A DNA stretch of 64,000 nt from an uncultured Collinsella sp. (lineage in GTDB: Bacteria > Actinomycetota > Coriobacteriia > Coriobacteriales > Coriobacteriaceae), in the NCBI GenBank assembly GCA_947642445.1, contig CANRSF010000004.1:1-64000 (forward strand), read 5' to 3'. How positions within the stretch are numbered: position 1 is the first letter of the stretch; every line of letters begins with the position of its first letter. The notes below the pieces were generated by a model. That model did not search any database. It had not been told where the DNA came from and worked only from the letters and a program-made list of their open reading frames with translations. Made by a program: the position numbers and the translations under genes. This document shows, piece by piece, positions 1-39,050 of this stretch.

Positions 1-215
1 CGACAAGGCGCCACACTGGTCTGCGGAGTGTTCTGAAAACCAAGCCCGGCCCCCGCCTGCGGTGACGTTGCTGCGAGCTGCCCACGATGGGGCCGTTGTT
101 GGTTGGGGCCGCTGGGCTGATGTGGGGGCACGTGGTTGTTGCGGGCCCTGGTCCCGGCGGCGGCCTCGGCGCTTTGCGCCTGCTGCCTGGGGTGACTTTG
201 GGCTTGGTGCGAATT

Positions 216-396
216 GAGGTCTAATACTTTCCCGAGAAGTGAAGGACCTTATTTGGACCCCCGAAGCATTGGCATATTTTGACCGCTATTTCCTGCGGTT
301 TTGCAGCGCGAATCCTGCGGTTTTGCGGTCTAAAGGTGTGGATGCTCCGGGACTTCGTTTTTACTCGTTCACTTCTCGGGAAAAGTATTAGAGCTC
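216..396. repeat. Foldback element L1: long inverted repeat (216-243 / 368-396) around a ~125-nt loop with two CCTGCGGTTTTGC copies
   Basis: ctaatactttcccgagaagtgaa vs ttcacttctcgggaaaagtattag; loop contains tttcctgcggttttgc and aatcctgcggttttgc. Confidence 0.8.
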
Positions 397-558
397 AGCT
401 GGCGGGGGTACCGCCCTGGCGTCGAAGCCCCGCGTCTTCTTCGCTTGATTGGGAAAAACAGCCTCGCTGAAGTAATTGCGAGCTCGCCCGGACGTATCTG
501 CGGGGGTTGTCTGCACAATTCGCGGTATTATGTTGCGGAGTTTTGAAAGGAGCCGCTG

Positions 559-3773: not shown

Positions 3774-6539
3774 ATGGATCAGGACCGCCAAAACAGCCAA
3801 CGCCGCGACGCGCAGAACACGGAGCGCGAGCAGGATTTTACGACCTACCGCACTGCCCAAAGTTCAAACGACATGGTGCCGACGGTGTTTCGCCGCGGTG
3901 TCTACCGCACGATTCGCGGCAGCCTCAAACGCTTCTTGTCCATTGTCGTGATCACCGCGCTCGGCGTGAGCGTGATGTGTGGCCTTAAGGCGGGTTGCGA
4001 GGATCTGTGCGATTCGGTCGACGCTTACTTTGACCAGCAGAATGTTTATGACATCAACGTGCAGTCGACCTATGGTCTGACCGATGACGATATTGCCGCG
4101 ATCCAAGAGGTCGATGGCGTCGAGACGGCCGAGGGCATCTATACCGAGACCGCCTATACCGCCGTGGGTACGACGCGCGAGCGTGTCGTCGTACAGAGCC
4201 TCTCCAAAGAGAATATTGACCAACCGGTGCTAGTGCGCGGCGAGCTGCCCGAGACTTCGGGCGAAGTGGCAGTGACCTCACGTTTTTTGAAGGCTTCGGG
4301 CAAGAAAATCGGCGATACGGTGAGCTTTGCCGCCAACGATGCGAGCTCGTCGAACCAAAGCGCCAAGGACCAGTTTGCCGATGGGGACTACACCATTACG
4401 GCTGAGGTCCTCGATCCCACTGATGTGAGCTCCGACTCGACAGTCAACGCCTTCCGTGCCGCCTCGGCCGCGGACTACAAGTTCTACGTGAGTGAGGATG
4501 CCGCGACGTCGTCGTCCTATTCCGCGATCCACGTGATCGTCGAGGGAGCCAAGGACCTCAACTCCTATTCCGATGCCTATACGGCAAGGATTAACGAGGT
4601 CAAGGGCAATATCGAGAAGATTCGTGACGAGCGCGAAAAAGCGCGTGCCCAGGAACTGACGGCCGATACGCCGGCGAGCTTGGACGCGGCCGAGCGTCAA
4701 GCGAACATGGTCTTTGGGATTGAACAGGACAACATCAACCGTATGGCCGAGGGCAGCGAGGAGCGCGCCCAGGCTCAGGCCGATTTGGACCAGCGCCGCG
4801 CCGCCGCCGACCAGCAATTCGCCGATGCCCGCGCCGAGATTTCCGACCTTGGCGAATGCACCTGGTACATCCAGGACCGTGGCAACATCGCGAGCTACTC
4901 GAGCGTCGAGAGCGACAGCTCCTCGATCGAGGCCATCGCCACGGTCTTCCCGTTCATCTTCTTTATCGTCGCCGTGCTCATCAGCCTTACCACCGCCACG
5001 CGTATGGTCGAGGAGGAACGCACGCTCATCGGCCTGTATAAGGCGCTCGGTTATTCGCGCGGGCGCATTCTGTCCAAATACGTGGACTACTCGCTGTGGG
5101 CGTGCCTGATCGGCGGCGTGCTCGGCAATATCATCGGATTTGTGGGCCTGCCGCTGTTCCTGTTTACGGTGTTCGACGACATGTACTCGCTGCCCCAGAT
5201 GTTGCTTTCGTACGACATTGTGTCCTCAATCGTCTCGGTGGCACTGTTTGCCGTGGGCGTGGTGGGCGCCACAATTATCGCCTGCCGCCACGAGATGGCC
5301 GAGACCCCGGCCTCGCTCATGCGCCCCAAGGCTCCGCGCGCCGGCTCGCGCATCTTGCTTGAGCGTATCGGCTTTATCTGGCGCCGCATGGGCTTTTTGA
5401 ACAAGGTCGCTGCACGCAACCTATTCCGCTATAAAAAGCGCGCCTTTATGACCATCTTCGGAATTGCCGGCTGCACAGCGCTCGTGATCTGCGGTATGGG
5501 CATCCGTGACACGTCGGTGGCGCTTTCGCCCAAGCAGTACGGGCATATCACGCGCTATGACTTGCTGGCGGTCGCCAATCCCGACGATTTTTCGCAGACG
5601 TGCGCGGCGTTGGACGAGCGCAACGCGGCCAATGATTCCAACGTGACCGTGACCTCGACCCTGCCGATTATGACCGACAACGTCACCTTTACATTCGGCG
5701 GAAAGAGCGAGACCGTGCAGCTGATCGTGGTGCCCGATGACCGCACGAACGATCTGGACGACTATGTTCGCCTTGAGGATGAGTCCAAAGAGCCGCTGTC
5801 TTTGCGTGACGGAGACGTGTATCTGAGCAAGAGTTCACAGCTGGTACTGGGGATTCAGCCGGGCGATACGGCGCACGTCCAGGATTCGTCGCTCAATGTT
5901 GCCAAGGTCAAAGTCAGCGACATCTCGCTCAACTATCTAGGCAACACGCTTTACATGACGCAGAGCACCTATGAGCGCGCGTTCGGTCGAAGTGCACGCC
6001 TTAACGGCGTCTTTGTGCTGCTTAAGGGTTCGTCGGCTGACCAGATTGCGTTTACCAACCGTCTTAAGAGCGATGGTTGGATTACGCTGTCGAGCACCGC
6101 CGAGCATTGGGAAAACTATGAGGCAAACTTTACGATTATCAATTCGGTCGTGGTGCTTGTGACCTTTATGGCGGCGTGCCTGTCGTTTGTGGTGGTATTT
6201 ACGTTGTCTAACACCAACATCTCGGAGCGCGAACGCGAGCTGGCGACTATTAAGGTGCTGGGCTTCCGTCGTGGCGAGGTGCACCATTACGTCAACAAGG
6301 AGACGTTGATTCTTACGGCGATCGGAGCCGCGCTGGGCGTTCCGCTGGGCGGCTTGCTGGCCGAGAGTTTTACGTACATTTTGCAGATGCCGTCATTGTA
6401 CTTTGACGTTGAGGTCGAGCCGCTGAGCTACGTGCTGTCCGTTCTGCTGGCCTTTGCCTTTACGTTTATCGTCAACCTCGCTACCAATCGCACCCTCAAC
6501 AAGATCGACATGGTCGGCGCCCTCAAGAGCGCCGAGTAA
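3774..6539 (+). CDS. ABC transporter permease, FtsX/MacB type, with large extracytoplasmic region
   Basis: Two FtsX-like TM blocks; follows the ATPase gene; ATG at 3774 preferred over the listed 3717 start. Confidence 0.9.
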   Translation: MDQDRQNSQRRDAQNTEREQDFTTYRTAQSSNDMVPTVFRRGVYRTIRGSLKRFLSIVVITALGVSVMCGLKAGCEDLCDSVDAYFDQQNVYDINVQSTYGLTDDDIAAIQEVDGVETAEGIYTETAYTAVGTTRERVVVQSLSKENIDQPVLVRGELPETSGEVAVTSRFLKASGKKIGDTVSFAANDASSSNQSAKDQFADGDYTITAEVLDPTDVSSDSTVNAFRAASAADYKFYVSEDAATSSSYSAIHVIVEGAKDLNSYSDAYTARINEVKGNIEKIRDEREKARAQELTADTPASLDAAERQANMVFGIEQDNINRMAEGSEERAQAQADLDQRRAAADQQFADARAEISDLGECTWYIQDRGNIASYSSVESDSSSIEAIATVFPFIFFIVAVLISLTTATRMVEEERTLIGLYKALGYSRGRILSKYVDYSLWACLIGGVLGNIIGFVGLPLFLFTVFDDMYSLPQMLLSYDIVSSIVSVALFAVGVVGATIIACRHEMAETPASLMRPKAPRAGSRILLERIGFIWRRMGFLNKVAARNLFRYKKRAFMTIFGIAGCTALVICGMGIRDTSVALSPKQYGHITRYDLLAVANPDDFSQTCAALDERNAANDSNVTVTSTLPIMTDNVTFTFGGKSETVQLIVVPDDRTNDLDDYVRLEDESKEPLSLRDGDVYLSKSSQLVLGIQPGDTAHVQDSSLNVAKVKVSDISLNYLGNTLYMTQSTYERAFGRSARLNGVFVLLKGSSADQIAFTNRLKSDGWITLSSTAEHWENYEANFTIINSVVVLVTFMAACLSFVVVFTLSNTNISERERELATIKVLGFRRGEVHHYVNKETLILTAIGAALGVPLGGLLAESFTYILQMPSLYFDVEVEPLSYVLSVLLAFAFTFIVNLATNRTLNKIDMVGALKSAE

Positions 6540-6590
6540 CCTGCCAAAAAGGGACAGGTTTATTTTGGCAGGTTTTATCTGGGCAAACGC
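6537..6590 (+). repeat. GGGACAGG-core hairpin repeat, copy R3, at the stop codon
   Basis: TAAcctgccaaaaagggacaggtttattttggcaggttttatctgggcaaacg; TAA 6537-6539 is the permease stop. Confidence 0.92.
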
Positions 6591-6623
6591 CGGACAACCA
6601 TTAGGTGGCCCGGCGTTTGCCCC
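6581..6623 (+). terminator. Second, locus-specific hairpin after R3
   Basis: gggcaaacgccgg ... ccggcgtttgccc. Confidence 0.65.
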
Positions 6624-6733
6624 GTCAAACGGGCTTTCCATTTGCCTTTCATTCTATTTGGTTTTCGCTCGCAGGCGTGGATGAGAGGCTCTCTTTGGCC
6701 TTCGAGATTGGGCTTGTATGGGTCGTATGCCAC

Positions 6734-6882
6734 AAAATGGGCCTATCTACTACGTTTGCTACCACACCCTCGACCGTGACAAAGGTTATGAAATTAAAAC
6801 CGCAGGTAGAGGGCTTGCCAGCTTTCGGAAAAGGCGGGTATGGTCGGCCCTCTCGAGTTAAACGTAGTAAATAGGCCCTTTT
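6734..6882. repeat. Foldback element L2: 24-bp inverted repeat (6734-6757 / 6860-6882), ~102-nt loop
   Basis: aaaatgggcctatctactacgttt vs aaacgtagtaaataggccctttt; loop minus strand contains ctctacctgcggttttaatt. Confidence 0.8.
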
Positions 6883-6939
6883 CTTGGCGCGCGGTCAGCT
6901 CAATGCTAATCTCCGTGCCGGAACTGACCCAGTTGTTTG

Positions 6940-7010
6940 TAAGTTGCGGTGATATACGGACTGTTTGGCGCTTTGGAGCTTCAAAACAGTCCCTATCTCA
7001 CCGCAACTTA
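6940..7010. repeat. 27-bp imperfect inverted repeat with 17-nt loop
   Basis: taagttgcggtgatatacggactgttt / aaacagtccctatctcaccgcaactta. Confidence 0.85.
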
Positions 7011-8190: not shown

Positions 8191-8375
8191 GACGAATAGC
8201 CTCGGCCTCCCTAGTTACCGCAGGAGGCCCCAGGGCTTTCCTCCCAAATCTTTCCGCAGGACGGAAGGACCCCGCCGCGCGAAGCGCGCAGCGGGGTCCT
8301 GACATGTCCGAGGACGATTTGGGAGGAAAGCCCTAGGGCCTCCGATGAGAGCAGTTCCAGCCGAGGCTATTCGTC
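8191..8375. repeat. Nested foldback at the pfkA 3' end (three concentric stems)
   Basis: Outer 8191-8206/8360-8375 (gacgaatagcctcggc), middle 8223-8250/8316-8343 (27 of 28 paired), inner 8266-8300 hairpin. Confidence 0.9.
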
Positions 8376-10832: not shown

Positions 10833-12218
10833 ATGACGGATCAGGAAACGCCCGAGCGCGCGCATGTGACGGCCGATGATATCGAGGCCGCCAACGATCT
10901 TATCGACTTTATCGAGGCATGCCCCAGCATGTTCCATACGGCGGCGACCATTATGGCCGAGCTCGACGAGGCGGGCTTTACCTACCTGTCCGAGAATGCG
11001 GCGTGGGACATCGAGCCGGGCGGGCGTTATTACACGCAGCGCAACACCTCGAGCGTTGTTGCCTTTAAGGTGGGCGAGGACCTGGCCGCGACGTGGGGCG
11101 AGGACGGCGTTGCCGGTGACTATCATTTTCAACTCACGGCGTCGCACAGCGATTCTCCGACGTTTAAGGTCAAGGCCGTGCCCGAGCTCGACGGCGCGGG
11201 CGAGACGCTGCGCCTGAACACCGAGGCCTACGGCGGCATGATCGACTACACCTGGTTCGACCGCCCGTTGGCGCTTGCGGGCCGCGTGTTGGTGCGCGAG
11301 GGCGACCGTATTGAGAGCCGCCTGCTTGCCACCGAGCGCGAGGTCGCTATTATCCCGAGCCTTGCCATCCACATGAACCGCGGCGTTAACGAGGACTTTG
11401 CTCCCAACCGAGCCATTGATCTGTGCCCGCTCATCAGCGCCGGTGACCTTAAGCAGGGAGATTTTGACGCCCTGATCGCTGACGAACTGGACGTTGAGCC
11501 CGAGCAGATCCTGGGCCGCGATCTGTTCCTGGTCAATCGTCAGGATGCGCGCATTTGGGGCTGGGCCGACGAGCTCATCTCGACGCCCAAGCTCGACGAC
11601 CTGGCCTGCGCCTACACCTCACTGCAGGCATTTTTGGGTGCCGAGAACGCGCACGACGTTTCGGTCTTCTGCTGCTTTGATAATGAGGAGGTTGGCTCCG
11701 AGACCAAGCAGGGCGCCATGTCGACGTTCTTGGCCGACGCGCTGCGCCGCATCAACGGATCGTTGGGCTTTGACGACGAGTCGTACCACCGCGCACTTGC
11801 CGCCTCGATGCTTGTAAGCTGCGACAATGCACATGCCGTGCACCCCAACCATGCCGAGAAGTGCGATGCCCGCAATCAGGTGGTACTCAACGGCGGCATC
11901 GTCATCAAGGAGGCCGCCAACCAGCACTACTGCACCGACGCCTTTAGCCGCGCGGTGTTCCAGGCCATTTGCGATGACGCCGACGTGCCCACGCAGGCCT
12001 TTGCCAACAAGAGCGATATGGCCGGCGGTTCTACCCTGGGCAATCTGTCCAATATGCAGGCGAGCATGCATGCCGTGGACGTGGGCCTGCCGCAGCTTGC
12101 CATGCACTCGAGCTACGAGACCGGCGGCGTGCGCGACGTGATGTACGCTATCCGCGCCCTCACCGCCTTCTACGAGCGCAACCTAACCATCAACGGCGCC
12201 GAAAGTGTGGAGCTCTAA
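10833..12218 (+). CDS. M18 family aminopeptidase
   Basis: LTASHSDSPTFKVK, VFCCFDNEEVGSETKQGA, SCDNAHAVHPNHAEK; ATG 10833 after AAAGGGGAGAG. Confidence 0.93.
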   Translation: MTDQETPERAHVTADDIEAANDLIDFIEACPSMFHTAATIMAELDEAGFTYLSENAAWDIEPGGRYYTQRNTSSVVAFKVGEDLAATWGEDGVAGDYHFQLTASHSDSPTFKVKAVPELDGAGETLRLNTEAYGGMIDYTWFDRPLALAGRVLVREGDRIESRLLATEREVAIIPSLAIHMNRGVNEDFAPNRAIDLCPLISAGDLKQGDFDALIADELDVEPEQILGRDLFLVNRQDARIWGWADELISTPKLDDLACAYTSLQAFLGAENAHDVSVFCCFDNEEVGSETKQGAMSTFLADALRRINGSLGFDDESYHRALAASMLVSCDNAHAVHPNHAEKCDARNQVVLNGGIVIKEAANQHYCTDAFSRAVFQAICDDADVPTQAFANKSDMAGGSTLGNLSNMQASMHAVDVGLPQLAMHSSYETGGVRDVMYAIRALTAFYERNLTINGAESVEL

Positions 12219-12262
12219 AACCTGCCAAAAAGGGATGTTAATTTTGGCAGGTTTTATCTGGG
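12216..12262 (+). repeat. GGGACAGG-core hairpin repeat, copy R4 (core partly deleted), at the stop codon
   Basis: TAAaacctgccaaaaagggatgttaattttggcaggttttatctggg; TAA 12216-12218. Confidence 0.88.
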
Positions 12263-28010: not shown

Positions 28011-28045
28011 TTCTTGCAGATGTGGTGGCCTGTCTCGCTGCTTTG

Positions 28046-28261
28046 TCTCAATCTGTAACAGTTAGACGAGGAAATGGGTTCTACCTGTTACAGATCGAGA
28101 TTTTCTCTTCAGGGGGATTTGAATGTCTCGATCTGTAACATCTGGACGGCTAAAAGGTCTCAATCTGTTACAGATTGAGACAAAGGTCAGGGGCAAAGAC
28201 GGTTTGTCTAGATCTGTAACAGTTAGACGGGAATTCGGGCCCTAGATGTTACAGATTGAGA
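28046..28261. repeat. Six-copy array of a 15-nt motif (TCTCRATCTGTAACA) in alternating orientation, 40-41 nt period
   Basis: Motif starts 28046(+), 28086(-), 28126(+), 28166(-), 28207(+), 28247(-); spacers 25, 25, 25, 26, 25 nt. Confidence 0.95.
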
Positions 28262-28279
28262 TAATCGCGCCGCGAAAAT

Positions 28280-38699: not shown

Positions 38700-38751
38700 G
38701 CTGGACATATGTTGCGTAAATGCCCCAACTATCACCCTTTGCGAACTTAGA

Positions 38752-38882
38752 TTTCGGAAGTATGCGGCAAAATCTGAATAGGCCGAGCACGCCGGATATG
38801 TCCAAGCTCTGTACCTGCGGTTTTATTGGCGAAAAACCAGGATGTGCTCATGAGTTCCGGAATTTGCCGCATACTTCCGAAA
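38752..38882. repeat. Foldback element L3: 20-bp perfect inverted repeat arms, ~91-nt loop
   Basis: tttcggaagtatgcggcaaa / tttgccgcatacttccgaaa; loop contains gtacctgcggttttattgg. Confidence 0.9.
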
Positions 38883-39050
38883 ACGACGTCTCGGTGGCAC
38901 CAGAAACTGCCCTCGGAACCCTGAGATAATGAACATATGTAGCCGTTTGCCGCGAAATACCGCCCGTTTATAGAAACCACCCCCAGCGCGCGTCATCCTT
39001 ACGTTTGAATTAATACACATCTATGGAATTACGTAAGAGAGGACCGTTCC

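Follow-up and report, generated by a model that had tools for sequence, protein, structure and literature searches.

Two groups of described bacterial repeats come closest to the elements reported here: the MITE-like palindromic repeats, such as ERIC/RU-1, Correia/NEMIS, YPAL/RU-2 and RUP (PMC2229807, PMC3049150), and the REP sequences and REPINs with their RAYT transposases (PMC3116915, PMC2817692). We analysed a window of 64,000 nucleotides from an uncultured Collinsella sp. (contig CANRSF010000004.1), in which one foldback, L2, is a copy of a dispersed intergenic DNA repeat family of Collinsella and related gut Coriobacteriales. The family, about 120–180 bp long, is apparently without earlier description; no published account was found in the literature searched, which is weak evidence of novelty. 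Like the MITE-like repeats named above, its members are some 100–200 bp long, intergenic and dispersed, have terminal inverted repeats, are AT-rich for their genome and form a long stem-loop. Unlike them, they have no target-site duplication, no source IS that could be found, many lineage-specific arm classes, a central motif found order-wide and a nearly indel-free length. With REPINs they share two inverted arms around a spacer and an arm sequence specific to the lineage. In integron attC sites, which are likewise imperfect hairpins, complementarity weighs more than stem sequence and conserved R boxes stand at the termini, whereas the termini of the present elements are variable.

A dispersed family with a common core

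The source genome (G000, 2.02 Mb in 47 contigs) was scanned by pattern and with a covariance model, R1. The initial annotation had described three foldbacks in the window, L1, L2 and L3, as having unrelated, locus-specific arms around loops that all contain CCTGCGGTTTT. Both the inverted arms and the motif are present in all three (Table 1). The arms, however, fall into classes common to unlinked copies, and rather than independent foldbacks with private arms, the three represent classes (D, B and E, respectively) of one dispersed family with a fixed geometry.

Table 1. Positions in the window of the three foldbacks and their parts.
Feature	Position	Strand	Remarks
L1, class D element	215–397	+	arms 228–246/365–383, outer 215–233/379–397
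L1, motif CCTGCGGTTTT, two copies	292–302, 314–324	+	22 bp apart
L2, whole class B element	6723–6894	-	R1 match, 151.7 bits, 2.8e-44
L2, outer arm, one side, GCCACAAAATGGGCCTATCTACTACGTTT	6729–6757	+	inverted repeat
L2, inner stem, side 1, CGACCGT	6771–6777	.	second helix in alignment A1, dyad shared with outer arms
L2, core motif CCTGCGGTTTT	6796–6806	-	exact match
L2, inner stem, side 2, ATGGTCG	6840–6846	.	helix 2 of alignment A1
L2, outer arm, other side, AAACGTAGTAAATAGGCCCTTTTCTTGGC	6860–6888	+	inverted repeat
L3, class E element	38746–38888	+	R1 match, 35.5 bits, 6.4e-9
L3, arms	about 38745–38774/38860–38889		inverted repeat
L3, motif	38814–38824	+	exact match

The check suggested with that annotation, testing CCTGCGGTTTT sites genome-wide for arms, was run on the source genome. 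Exact CCTGCGGTTTT occurs there at 36 sites, versus 2 for a reversed-pattern control, and 29 of the 36 sit within inverted arms scoring above shuffled flanks; most sites thus have arms, the opposite of what would have refuted the annotation. Tallied from the site table, these 29 sites make up 22 elements, some having the motif twice. The sequence CTACCTGCGGTTTT reaches up to 18 copies per Collinsella genome, its reversed control being zero across the genus; it is flanked by arms in Collinsella and in a few other Coriobacteriales, where the arm sequences differ, and no arms were found around it in unrelated bacteria. As elements were gathered via the exact motif, motif conservation is overstated. 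Four of the nine class A copies in the source genome, found by their arms alone, lack the exact 11-mer, so the loop motif is partly an effect of ascertainment.

Elements measure 121–176 bp, below the limit of about 200 bp set for MITEs, with terminal inverted arms of 17–30 bp or more. Their GC content of 0.486, compared with 0.602 for the window and 0.540 for intergenic DNA, makes them AT-rich relative to the genome, as expected of MITEs. Across the genus, homologues of L2, about 160 bp long, occupy many unlinked positions, and similarity ends near the limits given for L2 in Table 1.

Nested inverted repeats of fixed length

Each element is an intergenic imperfect palindrome made of nested inverted repeats sharing one dyad. 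The outer arms enclose a short inner stem (CGACCAT, CGAGCACA or GAGTAGAC, depending on the class), inside which a degenerate hairpin, AAAACCGCAGG-N7-CCTGCGGTTTT, forms the apex and holds the motif. The dyad is common to outer and inner stems, and the apical hairpin is off it by no more than two bases. In the class B copies with a double motif this hairpin is perfect; in all others its 5' side has decayed.

Length is held very closely. Among 13 class A copies from two genomes, 12 are 121 bp long and one 122; in class B/C, the distance between outer arms is exactly 154 nt (columns 14–167) in 38 of 40 copies, with interiors 57% identical outside the motif. At the L2 locus, where copies have diverged in place, gaps per mismatch amounted to 0.216 in the right flank versus 0.051 in the element.

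Five arm classes were distinguished in the source genome, and other classes occur in other genera. The arm is TAAGTGAGTAGACTTTT in class A, CCACGAAA..GGCCTATCTACTACGTTT in class B, AAAACTATGCCGGTTTACTACGATGAAT or ..TTACGGGGC in class C, TCTAATACTTTTCC..AAGTGAACGAG in class D, which includes L012, L014 and L034 as relatives of L1, and TTTCGGAAGTATGCGGCAAAATC in class E. A search for the class A arm with at most 2 mismatches gave 18 matches in G000 and 8 in a second genome, G061; all 26 formed inverted pairs (13), spaced by 104 bp or, in one pair, 105. No solo class A arm was found in either genome, the arm occurring only within elements. Insertion of the core into pre-existing palindromes was rejected, no uninterrupted class A palindrome having been found.

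Arms change in matched pairs

Covariation was measured on 40 class B/C elements (alignment A1), with figures that include the relatedness between copies: 87.1% of cells were paired, versus 76.6% after shuffling, and 193 cells were double-changed, versus 78.5 ± 9.7 after shuffling and 12–33 when partners were slid. In the outer helix, double changes affected 15 of the 21 pairs, and one-sided changes were rare. The matched-pair divergence of arms around a conserved core, noted in the initial annotation, is thus real.

Double-sided changes outnumbering one-sided ones could also arise if intramolecular template switching or gene conversion acted on palindromes and maintained the complementarity of arms that have little function, and L040, in which a class C1 left arm faces a class B right arm, is as expected of a copy in mid-conversion. 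We find this explanation very doubtful, as it accounts neither for identical arms in unlinked copies nor for the fixed loop length, and the arm mismatch of L2 has persisted through several species.

Among class A paralogs in different surroundings, identity was 93.6% in the arms, 54.5% in the interiors and 32% in the flanks, and between orthologs of different species the interiors changed about as fast as the flanks. One origin that had been proposed for the foldbacks, in which flanking sequence is copied into the arms, finds no support: unlinked class A copies have unrelated flanks, yet their arms are 94% identical. Structure alone needs complementarity, not identical letters, and the simplest reading would be that the arm sequence is recognised by a hypothetical trans-acting factor.

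Structure as RNA or as DNA

Mismatches, read in the sense of the motif, numbered 125 for G·T and 156 for A·C (p = 0.07, the counts not being independent). Because the two are balanced, there is no sign of one strand being kept as RNA. The selection for structure that had been suggested is therefore not borne out for RNA, for which a mismatch asymmetry is missing; matched arm sequence and spacing at the DNA level fit better.

Of 60 placed elements, 34 lie between co-oriented genes, 21 between convergent and 5 between divergent ones, to be compared with 27, 5 and 5 of the 37 window gaps; genes come from a simple hexamer model, which misread the gene beside L2, and orthologous copies are counted repeatedly. 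On one side or both, most elements are bordered by the 3' end of a gene. L2 is surrounded by a convergent pair, an FtsX-type permease and an HTH regulator, and L3 has a CoA-enzyme activase on one side and a 3-hydroxyacyl-CoA dehydrogenase on the other. It could be, then, that the elements act as structured RNA in 3' untranslated regions, where read-through transcripts would fold into a long hairpin, with effects on the stability of mRNA, on RNase III-like cleavage or, between convergent genes, on antisense interference. Besides the 3' ends and the share of convergent sites, the coaxial stems, the covariation and the interiors, whose folding is on both strands somewhat better than that of shuffles, are in line with such a role. 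We nevertheless consider it unlikely. On the motif strand, G·U is no commoner than A·C; elements have no match in Rfam even at a permissive threshold; the upstream gene of L3 ends in a separate hairpin-plus-T-run, L3 being located beyond it; no T-run follows class A or B arms; and a hairpin would not require the same arm sequence in unlinked copies.

Two further candidates were rejected: an intrinsic terminator, for want of that T-run, and a small ORF, one class B frame being often open, yet with no codon periodicity (no third-position excess of substitutions in classes A, B and C).

Mostly vertical inheritance

Copies are spread around the genome and held at orthologous positions across species, L2 occupying the same place in at least 10 other Collinsella genomes; at other sites, presence differs between close species. 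Inheritance is mostly vertical, with local gain and loss. The L3 site is filled in G000 and G005 and empty in G011, which retains CTTCCGAA, a sequence that could be an arm remnant, and L034 in G018 retains part of an arm. In general, sites of absence resemble deletions with arm remnants or are occupied by other repeats, and they favour deletion or replacement. No clean insertion junction was found among the orthologous sites compared. Around 31 independent elements, longer repeats that could be target-site duplications were no commoner than in re-paired flanks, and the 2-bp repeat class gave P = 0.02, uncorrected. Gain and loss also affect tandem units of about 250 bp.

Stable positions all round the genome, with arms and spacing constrained, might mean that the elements are non-mobile sites at which the chromosome is bound by a host protein of the nucleoid, of segregation or of repair, whose paralogs the arm classes would track. 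This is improbable, given that several species of the genus have few or no detectable copies and that presence varies between close species; moreover, replacing the arm class at many sites would be hard without re-seeding.

Several contigs have one of their ends within an element or very close to one (the start of C2 in G000, C30/C25 in G009, C8 in G063, C14/C28 in G018), which suggests that the elements break short-read assemblies.

Search for a mobiliser

None of the genes adjacent to elements resembles a mobiliser. The genome-wide transposase search covered the Y1 family (PF01797), and in likeness to REPIN systems, such transposases were present in all 11 Collinsella genomes searched, copy-rich and copy-poor alike. 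None of the 23 PF01797 loci in these genomes had the core motif or arms A–E within 1.5 kb, and their flanks, where checked, showed no clear palindromes. In G006 only, a RAYT was found about 2.3 kb from an element, a neighbour absent from the stretches checked in G061, G000, G018 and G013. A Y1/RAYT link was rejected, the genes occurring in copy-rich and copy-poor genomes with flanks devoid of arms and core.

Membership among REPINs fails because there is no linkage to Y1 transposase genes, which are not flanked by element arms. The elements further differ from REPINs in that single arms, inspected by eye, show no obvious internal REP-type small hairpin, class A arms are never solo, and copies share an internal motif and an inner stem. 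Membership among MITEs fails on the target-site duplication, and the search of the Y1 family yielded no source transposase.

Other repeats were seen in the window. A very highly conserved short repeat, AACCTGCCAAAA..GGGACAGGTT..TTTTGGCAGGTT, lies at 6538–6592, about 1829–1871 and 12216–12256; it has many copies per Collinsella genome and may be a RAYT-linked REP family, because it flanks a Y1 transposase gene in G018 (L292). Directly adjoining L2, at 6940–7010, is another foldback family (AAGTTGCGGTGATA...TATCACCGCAACTT), whose inner arm segments likewise diverge in matched pairs from one species to another. R1 does not match the inverted repeats at 8191–8375, which are nested around a single dyad, with an outer pair of 16 bp, an inner pair of 28 bp and a perfect palindrome at the centre. 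At 28041–28266, beside a 1-deoxy-D-xylulose-5-phosphate synthase gene, TCTCAATCTGTTACAGATTGAGACA recurs as a cluster of about five variants whose orientation alternates, which looks like a regulatory or repeat array.

Distribution

R1 matches were obtained in 100 of 399 genomes of Coriobacteriales. Most genomes of a copy-rich Collinsella clade had at least 7, with best E-values below 1e-44. Matches in other genera and families were weaker; those in distant families were inspected in part, and some, such as L494, look like chance. Other genera have the same architecture, with dominant arms common within a genome and different between genera (for instance GCGAAACGAGCGGTTTAT in G222, CGCGCCAATGTAAGGATGGAAT in G211 and ATGCGGTTATCCGACGTTTT in G227), loops mostly of 87–93 nt and the motif near position 41.

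A phage origin was rejected: among the motif sites listed for viral contigs, 120 in number, none had convincing arms, and a search of a phage collection gave no match. In a plasmid collection the only match was a Collinsella record, NZ_OY725717.1 (region 221000–237000), labelled plasmid 6 of Collinsella aerofaciens. It measures 0.9 Mb and is probably a piece of chromosome, because it carries rho and argS.

Discussion

Our preferred, tentative reading is that of a MITE-like DNA element whose matched arms would be recognised by sequence in trans, and which is now mostly inherited vertically. A hypothetical DNA-binding protein, transposase-like in the manner of proteins acting on MITE ends, would bind the two arms together, as an inverted pair matched in sequence and fixed in spacing, and the central motif beside the dyad may serve as a second determinant of recognition or folding. 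Shifts in the specificity of this protein would give rise to new arm classes. Mobility is inferred on this proposal; the copies seen today look like old ones, not like newly mobilised ones. Against a MITE-like element count the lack of a target-site duplication in 31 elements, of a clean insertion junction, of a mobiliser-like neighbour and of a consistent Y1 linkage, as well as arms that are well preserved in old copies, unlike those of dead MITEs. Because arms and spacing are so well kept in old copies, it suggests that copies are maintained, which leaves room for a host binding-site function.

A broader proposal, which we regard as unlikely, is that the elements are order-wide paired-arm chromosomal sites, with a fast-diverging DNA-binding partner that coevolves with the arms and a second, conserved factor reading the central motif. 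If true, this coevolution of paired arms and partner would amount to a system of recognition that differs from the interspersed repeats described in bacteria.

On the practical side, these palindromes coincide with contig breaks in assemblies. Collinsella and its relatives are common in the gut, and the family offers a natural experiment in coevolution: because arms diverge in matched pairs from lineage to lineage around a constant geometry and core, an arm-reading protein, should there be one, would be directly testable.
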